From Arthrobacter woluwensis (GTDB taxonomy: Bacteria > Actinomycetota > Actinomycetes > Actinomycetales > Micrococcaceae): a stretch of DNA of 64,000 nt. Both the position numbers and the translations under genes were made by a program. The stretch is from assembly GCF_900105345.1 (NCBI RefSeq), contig NZ_FNSN01000003.1, positions 1,240,001 to 1,304,000 on the forward strand. Direction: 5' to 3'. Under the pieces are notes generated by a model, which was given only the letters and a program-made list of their open reading frames with translations, had not been told where the DNA came from and searched no databases. Shown piece after piece: positions 45,273 through 51,514 of this stretch. Numbering within the stretch: the first letter of the stretch is position 1; each line of letters starts with the position of its first letter.

Positions 45273-45280
45273 GGTTGACC

Positions 45281-46366
45281 GTGGCTCTTACTATCGGCAT
45301 CGTCGGACTTCCCAATGTTGGCAAGTCAACGCTCTTCAACGCACTGACCCGCAACCAGGTCCTCGCAGCGAACTATCCGTTCGCGACGATCGAGCCGAAT
45401 GTCGGCGTCGTCAACCTCCCGGATCCGCGCCTCACCCAGCTCGCCGAGATCTTCGGCAGCCAGCGGATCCTCCCGGCCACCGTGTCCTTCGTGGATATCG
45501 CCGGCATTGTGAAGGGCGCGTCGGAAGGTGAAGGCCTGGGCAACCAGTTCCTCGCCAACATCCGCGAGGCCGAAGCCATCGCCCAGGTGGTGCGCGTGTT
45601 CGATGACCCGGATGTCATCCACGTCGACGGCAAGGTCGACCCGCGCTCCGACATGGAGACCATCAACACCGAGCTGATCCTCGCCGATCTGCAGACCATC
45701 GAGAAGGCCATCCCGCGCCTCGAGAAGGACATCCGCGCCCGCAAGCGTGAGCAGTCCGAACTGGACGCCATCAAGGCCGCCCAGACCGTCCTCGAACGCG
45801 GCGACACCATCTTCTCCTCGATCGCCTCGGACAAGCTGGACCTGGACAAGCTCAAGGAACTGAGCCTGCTCACGGCCAAGCCCTTCATCTATGTGTTCAA
45901 CGCCGACGAGGGCATCCTGGGCAGCGAGGACAAGCAGGCCGAACTGCGCGCTCTGGTCGCTCCGGCCGACTGCATCTTCCTCGACGCCAAGCTGGAATCC
46001 GACCTGGTGGAGCTCTCCGAGGAGGAGGCCCGCGAGATGCTCGAGATGAACGGCCAGGAGGAGTCCGGCCTGGACCAGCTGGCGCGCGTCGGTTTCCACA
46101 CCCTCGGCCTGCAGACCTACCTCACGGCAGGTCCCAAGGAGGCCCGCGCCTGGACCATCCGCCAGGGCGACACCGCCCCGCAGGCGGCCGGCGTGATCCA
46201 CACCGACTTCCAGCGCGGCTTCATCAAGGCGGAGGTCGTCTCCTTCCAGGACCTGGTCGACGCCGGATCCATGGCCGAGGCGAAGTCCCGCGGCAAGGTC
46301 CGCATCGAAGGCAAGGAATACGTCATGTCCGACGGCGACGTGGTGGAGTTCCGCTTCAACGTGTAG
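45281..46366 (+). CDS. ychF: Redox-regulated ATPase/GTPase YchF (Obg family)
   Basis: A 361-residue OBG-family P-loop protein associated with ribosomes and stress responses. Walker A is GLPNVGKST at residues 9-17. The G3 region is [19 protein letters not shown], and the G4 motif reads NADE rather than NKxD, the YchF hallmark linked to ATP preference. The C-terminal TGS domain ends [15 protein letters not shown]. The GTG at 45281 gives the standard MALTIGIVG start. Its last 28 bp are duplicated downstream at 49405-49432, so its 3' end looks like an attachment site. Confidence 0.97.
46335..46362 (+). repeat. Direct repeat copy 1 in the ychF 3' end (candidate attachment site)
   Basis: A 28-bp stretch at the 3' end of ychF, up to the second base of its last sense codon, is repeated without mismatch at 49405-49432. 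The distance between copies is 3070 bp. Confidence 0.85.
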
Positions 46367-46380
46367 TCACGCTACGACAA

Positions 46381-46415
46381 AGAGCCCCTGTCGTCTTTGA
46401 GACGGCGGGGGCTCT
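46381..46415 (+). terminator. Terminator after ychF
   Basis: A 15-bp stem with two G-T type pairs (46381-46395 with 46401-46415) and a TTTGA loop, 14 bp past the stop. Confidence 0.75.
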
Positions 46416-46895
46416 GCATTTGATGGTCGGCGTTAGGTCTGCTTACCGGCCTGCATGATCGCTGACTACTGCAGACTCGGCAGGACGCTCGGGAAGAAGG
46501 CGATGAGGTCTGAGATTGATGTTCCGAGCAGTGGCGTCCTGGCAACGCGAAAAGATCTGAACCGCCTCGGTTGCAGGCTCACTACGTGCACCGCGGCAGT
46601 CGTCATGTTCTTCGTCCACGCCCGGCACCCACGAGGTCGCACCGAAGTTCATGACGGCCGCCTCGAGTATCTATCTCCACGCCGCGCTCTCGGATTTCGG
46701 AACCTGAGAGCTCAGGTGGCACGCTCATTCTTCGAAGAGCGAGGTTTCAGAGCCTACCTAGACCCACAATTTCGATGGGGCCGATTTGCGGAGACTTTGC
46801 GGGGCCTTGACTGCTACTTGATGGTCGCCCTAGGCCCACTTGGATGAGTCGGGTGAGATAGTCGGGGCTAAAGTTTCTATGAAAAGGGGGGTGCA
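46416..46895 (+). other. Non-coding 5' flank of the island
   Basis: About 480 bp with no convincing gene. The open frame at 46455-46847 has no ribosome binding site and no recognisable product. The base composition is more AT-rich and mixed than the surroundings. Just before 46896 lie a candidate -10 region and the ribosome binding site AAAAGGGGGG. Confidence 0.5.
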
Positions 46896-49361
46896 ATGGC
46901 AAAAAAGAAACAAGCCCGCGAATTGCCGTCAGGGCGCATCGTAACGGCAGACAACGAAAGTCTTGCCGCGGCCGTCGCGCGTATGGGGGAGACGGTTAGT
47001 CGGATGGGCGGGACGACGAGTCTGCAGGACTACGTTGCTCGCGGACCCGAGATCATCGCGGAGCACGTTCAGACCATCGCGGATTCGCTGACGGACGCTG
47101 ATGCCTTCGACATCATCGAACTCATGCGGATGCGCGAGATGCCGGTGATACTAGACGGCTACCGTGAAAGTCTTGCTGATCAGACGCCGGCAGCGGTCGA
47201 ACTCGTCGCGCTCATTCTCATCGCCAGGGGCCAGCGCGCGCCCGTGTTGACGCCGACCATCAAGACCCGCCCTGCGGGATTGATTCCCGACCTGCACGAA
47301 CGGGCGCTCGAAATGCTGATCCTGGGCTCGTTCGCCCTCTTTAGCGCGGGTGAGCGAAACGAATTCGGGCCGCTGACCATGCTGTCCGCCCAGTTCGTCA
47401 GCCACGATCTGGCAGTGCAGTTCATGCAGTACGCACACATCAATGACGAGATCAACGAAGAGCTGTTCTCATCACACCACCTCGGTGAATTGCTCGTCGA
47501 GACGCTTGGTTTCAGCTACGAGGATTTCTGCGCCGTGCGTGAGGCAATCGTTCGCGTCCACGGGAAGAAGTTCTTGGCCCTCCGCGACACCGTCGGTGAG
47601 ATATTCGATCAGCGTGACGAGAAAAGGAACGATCCTGAGTCTGAAAAGGAAGCGCGCTCTGCCCTGGTGAGCATGCTGGAGCTTCCTGGGGAACGCGCAA
47701 CTCTCACGGTTCAAGAGGTGGCTGAGGCCTCAGGTGTCCCTGCGGATCGAACCCAAGCTGTTCTGGATCGTTTCAGCTTGACGTTCAACGGCGCTGACGA
47801 CGCTCTTGCCGTGGTGACGAAGTTTCTCGGCGGGGATAACCCGTTTCGCTCTGCGTCGCTGGTCAAGGACACCCACGGGAACTACATCTTGACAGGCAAG
47901 CCGATCGGCACCGACTGCTTCCGTCAGATCGTCGAAGAGGCGCTCAAGGCGGTCCCCGCAAAATTTCGCCGCTATGAAAAGCGCCGCATGTTCGTGAGCG
48001 AGAACCTCGCCCTGAAGCGTCTGGCCGCCCTGCTGGGCTCAGACGCGGCCCACGCGAACCTCAAATACTTCCGCGCCAATCCGGGCATCGAGGTTTCTGA
48101 GCTCGGATCCGATGCGAAGGATATCATTTCGATCGCCGAGCAGACTGAAGCCGACGGGCTGTTCATCATTGAGGATGTCGCGATTTGCGTAGAAGTGAAG
48201 GCAAAGAGTATCTCCAGTCACGCGCGGCGTGGGCATGTCCAAAGGTTGTCTGCCGATCTTCGGGAAACGATTGGTAGCGCGACCGACCAGGCGCTCAGGC
48301 TTGAAAACCATATCAGAACCAATCACGGGCTTTGGCTTGAAAATCGCGAATGGCTGGATCTCTCAGAGATCCGGGAGATTCGCTCGGTGACCGTCTACCT
48401 CGACGACTTCGGCCCGCTTTCCACTGCCTTGGACGAACTCGTGCGTGCCGACGTAGTCGGAAGTGATCGTTTCCCTTGGCTTGTGACGTTGCACGACCTT
48501 AGCGTCATTGCCGAGGTCATCGATAGGCCAGCGGAGTTCCTACTCTATCTGCGACGTCGCACAGAGTCAGAAGTGTCGCTGAAGTACTCAGCTGTCGACG
48601 AGCTCGATCTCTTCATGCTATTTCTCTCGGGCGGCTTGTGGGTTGAACCGGACCCTGATCGGGTAAGTGAAGAGTTCCTTGGCGTTGCGCCTTCTACGGG
48701 CAAGGAGCGTCGTCGGTATCAGGAGTCGGCCATTCCCACTCGAGTGATGACTCAAACCGACGAGCTGGACGCTTGGGTTTACTACCAGGAAGGCTCGAGC
48801 GGAGTAGAAGTCAAGAAGCCTTCCTTCAGCGTCTTACCGGGCACCGCCCGGATCGTGGACTTCCTTCAGGATGGGCGCAAGCCCGGGTGGTTCCGTTTCA
48901 GCGCCGATCTGTTGAACATTGCTGAGGAATCGCAAGAATCGCTATGCGACATGGTTGAACGCTTAGCGTTGATGACCCGACAGGACGGTCTCCACCACAA
49001 CTCGGTGATGGCATTTGCCGGAGCGTGGGGCTACCCGACGTTGTTCATGGGCACCAAACCTCGAAAGATGTCTATCCAAGAGGCCAGCTACCGGCTCGCG
49101 GCCTATGGGTTCGCTAAGAAGCACCAGATTCAGTCGGATCGTGCGCTCATGGTGGTATTCGACGAGGACCAATGCATTAGATCGGTCCTTTATGACAACT
49201 CGCCTCCGGAGGAGAATAAAGACCTTGACGGTGCCATTATGAAGATGGGCCTCATCCCCCCTGCCGACATGGGGCGGCCGATCCCACCGTCGGCGCGAAG
49301 AGCGACGGTCAGGTTGAATCCGAGCCGGAAGTCGAAGAAGCGGGGCAAACGCGGCCGCTAG
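46896..49361 (+). CDS. Island-borne 821-aa protein with PD-(D/E)XK nuclease-like motif
   Basis: An 821-residue soluble protein whose function I cannot assign. An N-terminal alpha-helical half (about 20-360) precedes a region with SENLALKRLAALLG (Glu369), then EADGLFIIEDVAICVEVKAK: Asp420, Glu433 and Lys435 fit the D...ExK pattern of PD-(D/E)XK nucleases of the NERD/REase type. Conserved-looking blocks follow (RPAEFLLYLRRRTE, DELDLFMLFLSGGLWVEP, KPGWFRFSADLLNI, HQIQSDRALMVVFDED, IPPSARRAT) and the tail is highly basic. Codon use is less GC-biased than in the neighbours. The ATG has AAAAGGGGGG upstream. It is the only gene between two 28-bp direct repeats. A DNA- or RNA-cleaving defence role is inference only. 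Confidence 0.72.
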   Translation: MAKKKQARELPSGRIVTADNESLAAAVARMGETVSRMGGTTSLQDYVARGPEIIAEHVQTIADSLTDADAFDIIELMRMREMPVILDGYRESLADQTPAAVELVALILIARGQRAPVLTPTIKTRPAGLIPDLHERALEMLILGSFALFSAGERNEFGPLTMLSAQFVSHDLAVQFMQYAHINDEINEELFSSHHLGELLVETLGFSYEDFCAVREAIVRVHGKKFLALRDTVGEIFDQRDEKRNDPESEKEARSALVSMLELPGERATLTVQEVAEASGVPADRTQAVLDRFSLTFNGADDALAVVTKFLGGDNPFRSASLVKDTHGNYILTGKPIGTDCFRQIVEEALKAVPAKFRRYEKRRMFVSENLALKRLAALLGSDAAHANLKYFRANPGIEVSELGSDAKDIISIAEQTEADGLFIIEDVAICVEVKAKSISSHARRGHVQRLSADLRETIGSATDQALRLENHIRTNHGLWLENREWLDLSEIREIRSVTVYLDDFGPLSTALDELVRADVVGSDRFPWLVTLHDLSVIAEVIDRPAEFLLYLRRRTESEVSLKYSAVDELDLFMLFLSGGLWVEPDPDRVSEEFLGVAPSTGKERRRYQESAIPTRVMTQTDELDAWVYYQEGSSGVEVKKPSFSVLPGTARIVDFLQDGRKPGWFRFSADLLNIAEESQESLCDMVERLALMTRQDGLHHNSVMAFAGAWGYPTLFMGTKPRKMSIQEASYRLAAYGFAKKHQIQSDRALMVVFDEDQCIRSVLYDNSPPEENKDLDGAIMKMGLIPPADMGRPIPPSARRATVRLNPSRKSKKRGKRGR

Positions 49362-49404: not shown

Positions 49405-49432
49405 GCGACGTGGTGGAGTTCCGCTTCAACGT
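49405..49432 (+). repeat. Direct repeat copy 2 (candidate attachment site)
   Basis: Identical over 28 bp to the ychF 3' end at 46335-46362. It is not followed by an immediate in-frame stop codon, unlike copy 1. Confidence 0.85.
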
Positions 49433-49495: not shown

Positions 49496-51244
49496 TCAGC
49501 GGTACGTGACCTTGACGCCGTACCGGGGGTCCCACGTGAGGTAGCCGTGCTGGAAGAACTGCCGGGTACCCCACACGTTGTTCGGATAGTACTGCCCCAT
49601 GAGCAGGGGCTGTTCCTCCGTGGTCGGATATCCGAGCCGGCCCCAGGCCCAGTTGAGGGACTGATAAACCCGCGCGTCTCCACCCATCACCCGTTGTGCG
49701 CCGGTGGTTTTCGACCACCAGATCATGCCGTTCTGGAACAGCTGGTAGCAACCGCCGCCGGGACCTGAGCAGTTCTCATCGCTGGTGGGGTAGCCGAGTG
49801 ACTTGCCCGCATACGCAAAAGAGTTGTAGTCGCCCCAGACGAAGTTGGAGCGCTGGTAGGTGCCCAGGATCGAGCCCCAGACGGCGCGAGCGGGGGTCTT
49901 AGGGGACCACCAGATCATCCCGTACTGGAAGCGCTGAGAGCACCCTGACTTGTCGACGTTGTTGAAAGTCAGGCCGAAACACTGCTCCGGCCCTGTCGGG
50001 TATCCGAGGTGGCCCTTTTCGCCGCCCAGAGCCCGCCACTTGGCGCGGATGGCGCCCTTGACCGGCTGTGAGCTCGTGGCCGGAGTCCACATCACGGTTC
50101 CGCCGGCGAATTCCTGGCTGCAGCCGCCCTGAGCCAGCCCGCACCGCTCATCGGCCAGCGGGGGTCCGTACAAGCCGATGGTGATCGCATCGCCGTCCCA
50201 GCGGAACATCGCACCCTTGACCACCGTGAGCGAATTCCCCTTGGTGTAAATGGAGGCGCGCTGGAAAGTCGTCTTGCAGTAGCCGCGAGCGTTGTAGAAG
50301 TCGCACCTCGAGTCGAGCGGGTAACCTGCCTGACCGGCTTCGCCGCCGAGTGCGCGCCAGCGATTCCATTCCGGGCTGCCGACGGCGACGACGCCCCGCA
50401 CCGAGGAGCCCTGGGAGTACCTCTGGACGATGGCGTTGTTCCACACGTTGTTCATGTAGCCCACGTACCGTGCGGAACAGCCTCCCTGAGCCAGGCCGCA
50501 CTGCACCGGAGACAGCCAACGAACGCCGCCACCGTTCGGGCCGTGCGGTTGCAGGTACTGGACGATCGGCTGGCTGCGGTCCAGCACGAATGCGGCGGCT
50601 CCGTTGGGCGCCACGATGATGACCTTCTCAAACGCTTGCTGGTATGAGCGGGGCACTGTGAACGAGTAACCGGTCCACTGGTAGTCGGCGAGTTCCTCTT
50701 CCGGCATGCCGAACTTCGCATAGCCGCCGTCGGCGAAGTACTTGGCGCCGACGCCCGTCGCCCGGGAGACCCCGTGGGCTCCGAGGGCCGACTTCCAGTA
50801 GGCGGTGCCGTACTCGAACTCCTGGGTGCAGAAGGTGCTTGTCGCGCACACCTGAGCCGCACGTGGTTTCCCGTAGAACGGCTCGACTCCATAGCTCCCG
50901 TACCAGGCAGTGAAATGGCTGCCCACAGGGATCGACGACGGCGTGGCAGTCGGTTGCGGGCTGGGCGTCGCGGTGGCCGTGGCGCTGGGAGCCGGAGTGG
51001 GTTCCGACGTCGGCGGTGCCGTCGGAGCCTCGGTGGTCACCGGGGTCGCGGAGGGAACGGGCGCTGTTTCCGTCGGAGCGGAAGTCTCCGTCGGCGTCGC
51101 GGTGGCGCTGACCGTCGGAGTGGGGGACGCCTCCGCCAGGGCGGGGGCCAGTGGCGTCACCAGCCCGCTGCACAAGGCGACCGTCGCGGTCACTGCATAG
51201 AGGGCCTTTAGGCCTCTCTGTCGAATGCTGGGCAAGTGTGCCAT
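49496..51244 (-). CDS. Secreted LGFP-repeat protein
   Basis: A 582-residue exported protein. The signal peptide is KALYAVTATVALCSGLVTPLAPALAE-like (written in parts: VTATVALCSGL and PLAPALA). A Thr/Pro/Ser linker of about 70 residues follows. The C-terminal 450 residues hold several LGFP-type repeats, each with a G-x-LGYPT/PL-x core (AGYPLDSRC, LGYPTGPEQC, LGYPTSDENC and LGYPTTEEQP) followed by an F-Q-x-G-x-I-W-W segment, and paired cysteines. LGFP repeats are thought to bind the cell wall in Actinobacteria. ATG at 51244. It lies between repeat copies 2 and 3. Confidence 0.85.
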   Translation of the reverse strand: MAHLPSIRQRGLKALYAVTATVALCSGLVTPLAPALAEASPTPTVSATATPTETSAPTETAPVPSATPVTTEAPTAPPTSEPTPAPSATATATPSPQPTATPSSIPVGSHFTAWYGSYGVEPFYGKPRAAQVCATSTFCTQEFEYGTAYWKSALGAHGVSRATGVGAKYFADGGYAKFGMPEEELADYQWTGYSFTVPRSYQQAFEKVIIVAPNGAAAFVLDRSQPIVQYLQPHGPNGGGVRWLSPVQCGLAQGGCSARYVGYMNNVWNNAIVQRYSQGSSVRGVVAVGSPEWNRWRALGGEAGQAGYPLDSRCDFYNARGYCKTTFQRASIYTKGNSLTVVKGAMFRWDGDAITIGLYGPPLADERCGLAQGGCSQEFAGGTVMWTPATSSQPVKGAIRAKWRALGGEKGHLGYPTGPEQCFGLTFNNVDKSGCSQRFQYGMIWWSPKTPARAVWGSILGTYQRSNFVWGDYNSFAYAGKSLGYPTSDENCSGPGGGCYQLFQNGMIWWSKTTGAQRVMGGDARVYQSLNWAWGRLGYPTTEEQPLLMGQYYPNNVWGTRQFFQHGYLTWDPRYGVKVTYR

Positions 51245-51514
51245 GGTCCCCCAAAAAAATACCGAACGGCTGGAATGCTGAACGAATGCTATCGGTTGGG
51301 GTCGTCGCTGGGAAGGGCGGGAAGTGCGATGATCAGACGCTGGTGTGGTCCACCCTGGATTTCAGCGCGGTTCGACGTCCGCGGCGGCGTCCCAACGCCA
51401 GGGCCGGTGCTGAAAGCACGTGATACTCCATATCCGACGGCGACGTGCTGGAGTACCGCTTCACCATGGGCCACGGAGCGAAGGGGAGCCGGCCGGGGCC
51501 GGAACCGTCGCCGC
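51245..51514. other. Intergenic region with degenerate ychF-end copy
   Basis: 270 bp without a supported gene. It holds the LGFP gene's upstream region (an A7 run at 51253-51259, T7 on the coding strand next to G5) and the degenerate ychF-like repeat at 51424-51465. Confidence 0.5.
51424..51465 (+). repeat. Direct repeat copy 3, degenerate ychF 3' end
   Basis: Aligns with ychF 46319-46360 and is identical at most positions, including 15 uninterrupted bases at 51433-51447. The conceptual translation YSISDGDVLEYRFTM parallels the ychF ending [15 protein letters not shown], and most changes would preserve the protein pattern. Confidence 0.65.

Follow-up and report, generated by a model that had tools for sequence, protein, structure and literature searches.

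At the 3' end of the housekeeping gene ychF in Arthrobacter woluwensis (RefSeq assembly GCF_900105345.1) lies a small inserted module whose only gene encodes an 821-aa protein. We believe this protein is likely a nuclease, and we will argue that it probably acts alone as a portable defence against phages. The DNA studied is a stretch of 64,000 nt, positions 1,240,001-1,304,000 of contig NZ_FNSN01000003.1, which we call the window and whose numbering is used below (Table 1); genomes and loci compared with it carry our own handles, G and L with a number. A first-pass annotation made from the letters of the window had described an 821-aa open reading frame (ORF) as the sole cargo of an island and had suggested a nuclease with a role in defence. 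The ORF is present as it was described, on the forward strand and beginning with ATG, and the basic C-terminal tail that had been claimed for its product is there as well.

Table 1. The module at the 3' end of ychF, with its borders and the parts of its candidate nuclease (window coordinates).
Feature	Position	Strand	Basis
ychF, host gene; its last bases are the chromosomal attachment site	45275..46366	+	ORF; empty-site comparison with G002
Left 28-nt attachment repeat at the ychF 3' end; native YchF C-terminus EFRFNV kept	46335..46362	+	repeat search, tail translation
Module leader, holding ORF 46455-46847	46363..46895	+	blastn, Pfam
821-aa candidate nuclease, only cargo of the module	46896..49361	+	ORF list, alignment, dN/dS
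Winged-helix-like segment (tentative), residues ~206-337	47511..47906	+	full-length model
NERD-like PD-(D/E)XK segment, residues 369-500 (E369, E418, D420, E433, K435, Q465)	48000..48395	+	alignment, NERD matches, domain model
Core motif, residues 418-435 (EADGLFIIEDVAICVEVK)	48147..48200	+	alignment
Right attachment repeat; point at which the chromosome continues in the empty site	49405..49432	+	repeat search, G002 comparison

The island is real. It measures 3,070 bp from repeat to repeat between exact 28-nt direct repeats, and its guanine-plus-cytosine content is 58.4%, where the window as a whole has 67.5%. A search of the entire 3.86-Mb genome for the 26-nt core of the repeat, allowing up to 3 mismatches, finds only those two copies. 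We compared the site in three genus mates. In G002 the end of ychF is joined directly to the DNA that follows 49405 in the window, and this is the empty site; in G001 this point is occupied by another insert, of ~2.1 kb, and G003 has one copy of the core followed by ~3 kb without similarity to the window. Direct repeats together with an empty site in a relative identify a site-specifically integrated island. It is not an autonomous one, since between 46363 and 49404 we saw no recombinase ORF and found no match to PF00589 or PF07508.

The claim that the module has a single cargo gene also survives. The leader ORF has no Pfam match. Arthrobacter sp. MYb229 carries a related module, and blastn similarity to it starts only at 46873, just 5' of the cargo gene; the leader stretch has no blastn similarity to its counterpart there and aligns with it poorly. 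Because it has no match of any kind we do not accept the leader ORF as a second gene, and it is probably spurious. Scans of the module for promoters (0 sigma-70-like sites against 0.9 expected) and for terminators (nothing above chance) are uninformative either way.

The homologues of the gene are not all core genes passed on by vertical descent. The gene is present in 2 of 59 relatives, in 7 of 396 genomes of the phylum (three of the seven being distant partial matches) and in 8 of 394 genomes of the class (two of the eight being such matches), with its own genome included in each count. Arthrobacter sp. MYb229 and MYb213 both have an 85%-identical protein directly 3' of ychF, closed by the same type of site. 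The modules of these two strains have 99.77% identity over 3,028 bp but their ychF genes only 90.6%, and the arrays downstream differ, so we conclude that such modules move as units. Between the window and MYb229 the nuclease gene is 86.4% identical at the DNA level, ychF 75.5% and ispH 75.3%. The same comparison of the gene with its MYb229 copy gives 0.078 nonsynonymous substitutions per nonsynonymous site (dN) and 0.434 synonymous substitutions per synonymous site (dS), a ratio of ~0.18, which means the gene is kept by purifying selection.

The argument for a nuclease begins with the residues. We aligned 24 sequences, the window protein and 23 homologues that are each 15-85% identical to it, from four bacterial phyla and one archaeon; one of them, L007, covers only the stretch from just before E369 onward. 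The first-pass annotation had placed Glu369, Asp420, Glu433 and Lys435 in a PD-(D/E)XK pattern, and they are at the positions it gave. E369, E418, D420, K435, Q465, L535, R555 and E569 are invariant in all 24 sequences, and at position 433 there are 21 sequences with Glu and 3 with Gln (L093, L097 and L098, all of the SEC-C type). The residues expected of a PD-(D/E)XK nuclease are therefore conserved across the family. As a separate observation, the homologue in Arthrobacter sp. H5 (L007 638-3091) is spread over three ORFs and seems broken.

The second part of the argument is a link to NERD. Distant homologues were obtained by tblastn of the window protein against plasmids, and in 7 of the 8 scanned the NERD profile (PF08378) matches at E<=1. 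Two of these matches, at 32.7 in L097 and 28.4 in L093, exceed the Pfam gathering score of 22.1. In each of the seven the match covers the residues that align with D420, 433, K435 and Q465. The window protein itself stays below the NERD threshold while L097 and L093 lie above it, so it is a relative of NERD proteins and not a member by Pfam's rule. Mainly on the strength of the invariant residues and this NERD link we consider the assignment as a nuclease likely.

Structure models agree in part. In an AlphaFold model of residues 340-562, the domain model, the elements run alpha-beta-beta-beta-alpha-beta, with E369 in the first helix, D420, E433 and K435 at strands and Q465 in the next helix. 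When the domain model is compared with known structures, 43 of the 50 rows listed belong to what we take to be PD-(D/E)XK nucleases, some proteins being repeated, among them McrC, Card1, Can2 and the Shedu protein SduA. A winged-helix-like segment may precede the nuclease-like part: residues 271-290 of the full-length model reach 86 in the predicted local distance difference test (pLDDT), and IclR and other winged-helix rows score Z 4-6. The full-length model has no Foldseek match at E<=0.001 and all of its structural rows are at Z<8. Searching the PDB by sequence, with a single query and with two profiles, produced no convincing match, and the absence of a family from such lists excludes nothing. 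Relatives of the window protein were found neither in 50,697 phage records at E<=0.01 nor in scans of IMG/VR with family queries.

The argument for defence comes from the neighbours of the homologues. At 13 homologue loci 20 neighbouring proteins were scanned against PADLOC, and at 7 of the 13 a strong defence match lies beside the homologue or within ~3 kb. On the Gordonia plasmid pGKT2 the homologue (L018 7569-10028, 28% identity) sits between HmaA and HmaB; it starts at the stop codon of HmaA and is followed by HmaB and then HmaC. L049 has a DruE-like helicase, and L052 has a caspase with a weak ThsB-like TIR protein directly downstream. The remaining matches are to Avs3a (L099), a PifA-like NTPase (L100), MkoA (L098) and PDC-S02 (L097).

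It is useful to compare the protein with the systems it resembles. NERD/SEC-C proteins, which have PF08378 and a C-terminal PF02810 and are annotated as 'SEC-C metal-binding domain-containing protein', are homologous to it over the nuclease-like region; closer homologues are annotated as 'preprotein translocase subunit SecA'. The SEC-C motif (PF02810) matches at the C-terminus of 4 of the 24 aligned sequences. The window protein differs in having no detectable NERD score, no SEC-C match and no C-terminal CxC...CC zinc motif, and it ends in its basic tail instead. Shedu (SduA) and other single-protein PD-(D/E)XK defence nucleases are likewise one protein with a PD-(D/E)XK-like motif, and in the structural comparison of the domain model SduA chains rank near the top (Z 4.6-4.7). 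The window protein differs in matching no PADLOC model. Hma, a system related to Type-1 bacteriophage exclusion (BREX), has an HmaA helicase, an HmaB methylase and an HmaC ATPase in one locus. All three surround the Gordonia homologue, whereas the window gene stands alone in a module with no room for them, without helicase, methylase or DUF499 ATPase. PMC12839542 describes PD-(D/E)XK proteins as auxiliary effectors in BREX and BREX-related loci, which makes a nuclease within an Hma locus something of a known kind. Neither SEC-C nor SecA is mentioned in the main text of PMC12839542.

What the first-pass annotation overlooked is that the module is one of many at the ychF site. A 20-nt core of the site, with up to one mismatch, is found in 96 of 149 Micrococcaceae genomes and in at least two copies in 24 of them, the genome studied here included; the reversed core, used as a control pattern, is found in none of the 149. 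In 20 of the 24 multi-copy genomes the first copy, in the stretch read, is the native tail of ychF. G798 has an altered ychF 13 kb upstream of its array, and no ychF was seen in the stretches read of G010, G017 and G901 or in the second stretch of G899. The loci we read hold 23 ychF copies of the site and 60 other copies (up to 3 mismatches). These 60 share a different left half, approximately AGGTTnnTnCGTgcCGGAACgtGGTGGAGTTCCGCTTCAACGTcTAg, and form an imperfect palindrome around GGTGG. L058-L081, L003 and L004 hold arrays in which small modules follow one another in tandem and each ends in a conserved imperfect-palindrome site; most of the arrays lie downstream of ychF. Successive sites, again with up to 3 mismatches, bound 55 intervals of about 0.5-10.5 kb; two intervals are counted twice since L081 overlaps L003, and not all of the intervals need be cassettes.

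Some of the intervals are found again in other genera. A cassette with a Clp_N-type gene lies at differing array positions across genera (L065 1248-2768, L067 1232-2754, L004 12535-15480, L076 12974-17661), and in G834 and G017, which belong to different genera, the modules with this gene have 93.6% identity from end to end. We scanned 118 cargo proteins of the arrays; their genes were called by a simple codon-score script that misses low-GC genes, and long ORFs were added and short ones removed by hand before the tally. Among the matches listed are TetR, GNAT, helix-turn-helix proteins, HigB (3) and PIN (4), as well as AbiEi, AbiEii, AbiD and a HamB-like protein, beside transporters and metabolic enzymes. 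As far as these matches go, the tally shows variety and not a purely defensive load.

We also looked for recombinases that might move the modules. We searched 26 genomes for tyrosine recombinases (PF00589, E<=0.001), G002 and G003 without an array among them, and with positions compared by hand none lies at any array. G022, where four sites lie on one contig, has just two PF00589 matches, both away from the sites. Xer or integron-type recombination was rejected as the mover, there being no PF00589 match at the arrays in this set. The PF07508 search of 22 genomes (one of them G002, with no array) found none at the arrays either, positions again being compared by hand. That search left out G798, G836, G871 and G003. 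In a protein search for serine recombinases across the 149 genomes (E<=1e-20), G798 was positive and the other three had none.

Large serine recombinases do adjoin the site in some elements. They lie 42-78 nt from it in 3 of 9 IMG/VR contigs that carry the exact site, only three of the nine having been gene-called; the other six show a ychF-like reading, whole or partial, up to the site. The distance is 46 nt in G893 and 210 nt in G798, and thus large serine recombinases occur in some elements at the same site, as in SCC. The G798 element, ~13 kb between ychF and the outer site (L116 2454-15628), holds HsdM/HsdS/HsdR-like ORFs, as judged by eye, and the large serine recombinase, and immediately ahead of the next site is the N-terminus of a truncated recombinase. 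The G893 element spans 13.3 kb from the ychF end to the outer site (L115 8094 to L114 14721) and has a primase-like ORF, also judged by eye; its serine recombinase shares 55% identity with the one on an IMG/VR phage contig. Both elements alter the YchF tail, to EFRHN... in G893 and EFRHG... in G798, while the modules without a recombinase keep EFRFNV. For this reason plain integration by these serine recombinases is not adopted as the full account of the modules, and the mismatch of tails leads us to call the array layout integron-like in topology only.

We believe the evidence points to a stand-alone NERD-type PD-(D/E)XK defence nuclease carried on a recombinase-less ychF cassette, and we favour this reading with moderate confidence. 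A mobile module of one gene, together with distant relatives beside anti-virus genes, makes a portable one-gene anti-phage defence probable. The N-terminal helical and winged-helix part would recognise invading DNA or a signal of infection. The metal-dependent centre formed by E369, D420, E433, K435 and Q465 would then cut DNA, either that of the invader or that of the host cell as an abortive response. The module would insert at the ychF 3' end without a recombinase of its own, and recombinases encoded by other elements that target ychF may move it in trans.

Several observations weigh against this reading. The window protein has no Pfam match at E<=10, none among the 5027 models of PADLOC-DB 2.0.0 (0/5027, E<=10), and a single NCBIfam match far below its cut-off. 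Both AlphaFold models are of poor confidence, with a mean pLDDT of 49.5 for the full length (6 sequences in the alignment) and 51.6 for the domain (5 sequences), and they contradict each other at residues 413-438, which are helical in the full-length model. The best values for the domain model, a Foldseek E of 0.058 and a VIA Z of 5.1, can both be reached by unrelated folds. The nuclease proposed in the first-pass annotation is supported by the conserved motif and the distant NERD matches and, weakly, by the fold comparison; the models are not good enough to prove the fold. The proposed role in defence has the support of gene neighbourhoods, but those with strong matches belong to seven homologues that are all at most 41% identical to the window protein. 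The closest relatives (44-85%) are found within ychF modules, at loci without a recognised defence system and on a plasmid where relaxase genes are the neighbours. At 6 of the 13 loci (L002, L016, L051, L094, L095, L101) the PADLOC matches are weak or absent. The neighbours were picked by eye with no matched control set, and more loci were viewed than the 13 that were scanned. Finally, the ychF arrays have a mixed cargo in which metabolic genes and transporters are numerous.

The alternative that survives best, which we nevertheless consider rather unlikely, is that the protein serves the mobile module itself. It would be a nuclease that aids excision, competition between elements or persistence in an addiction-like manner, and phage resistance would be a by-product. 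Several close relatives do lie on mobile DNA, in ychF modules among other places; one on plasmid p2MP adjoins a MOBP relaxase, and one in a Streptomyces locus has, as judged by eye, an FtsK-like DNA translocase with it. The HigB and PIN matches listed for the 118 cargo proteins also point to toxin-antitoxin genes in sister intervals. However, no antitoxin-like partner is seen in the window module, and distant members of the family in or beside Hma, Mokosh and Avs3a matches suit defence better.

A regulator or an RNA-processing enzyme is less probable still, and we give it small credit. The PD-(D/E)XK-like part would be inactive or directed at RNA and the winged-helix part would set expression. 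This fits the winged-helix-like rows for residues ~206-337, the unproven fold with its two disagreeing low-confidence models, and the Gln at position 433 in 3 of 24 sequences. The difficulty is that E369, D420, K435 and Q465 are the same in all 24 sequences, and nuclease domains that have become inactive usually lose residues of this kind. That an ordinary accessory gene is stranded in a degenerate phage or satellite remnant, with repeats left by one old insertion and nothing moving now, is very improbable: the missing recombinase, the matching sites on IMG/VR contigs and in the satellite Mulchroom (below) and the split copy in Arthrobacter H5 would fit it, but purifying selection on the gene, a sister module that is almost the same in two species whose ychF genes have diverged, and the same two-border organisation in unrelated modules do not.

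The defence-nuclease reading can be extended to a bolder claim, which we put forward tentatively and regard as doubtful in its full form. The 3' end of ychF in Micrococcaceae would be a cassette system like an integron or SCC, and the 821-aa protein a complete new NERD-type one-gene anti-phage cassette. There would be a fixed proximal site and exchangeable cassettes of ~0.5-10 kb, every one ending in an imperfect-palindrome site of 45 nt. Phages, satellites or larger ychF elements would provide the recombination in trans, through their serine recombinases or a tyrosine integrase.

Both comparisons have limits. The staphylococcal cassette chromosome (SCC) elements insert at the 3' end of rlmH and use large serine recombinases, and pseudo-SCC elements exist. 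The ychF modules resemble them in insertion at the 3' end of a conserved gene, in direct repeats and in tandem elements, and as with SCC and pseudo-SCC there are forms with and without a recombinase at one site, one element having Hsd-like genes. They differ in the gene and the host group, and the two serine-recombinase elements alter the C-terminus of YchF where the recombinase-less modules keep the native one. With integrons the arrays share a fixed proximal site and short cassettes each followed by an imperfect-palindrome site of ~45 nt. Yet there is no integron-type integrase, no PF00589 match having been found at the arrays among the 26 genomes (two without an array), so we do not class them as integrons. 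Insertion near ychF is also described for temperate phages or satellites of pneumococci (PMC8637289, PMC10383233). These sites lie upstream of ychF, between it and a neighbouring gene, and not at the 3' end as here.

Neither the ychF array nor the family of the 821-aa protein is described in the open-access literature we searched. If the protein is a defence nuclease, it adds an easily transferred single-gene system that escapes the present Pfam and PADLOC models, and it gives proteins that carry the annotation 'SecA' or 'SEC-C' a link to immunity in bacteria and in one archaeon. If the reading of the arrays is true, Micrococcaceae share a chromosomal dock at which small cassettes with genes for defence, toxin-antitoxin systems or metabolism are exchanged, and the mover of the recombinase-less modules can be tested directly with the serine recombinases found.

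Two minor observations concern the site. In Mulchroom, a satellite phage of Streptomyces, 25 nt match it (L091 7353-7377, E 0.02) ~80 nt from a tyrosine integrase gene, which suggests that ychF may be the integration site of this phage; the word ychF is absent from the main text of the Mulchroom paper. Within the window, ~96 nt at 51368-51463 bear a degenerate likeness to the ychF 3' end (76% to G001, 74% to G002), and a more degenerate copy of the repeat lies at 51442. Together with the gene at 49496-51244 this stretch may mark an older insertion.

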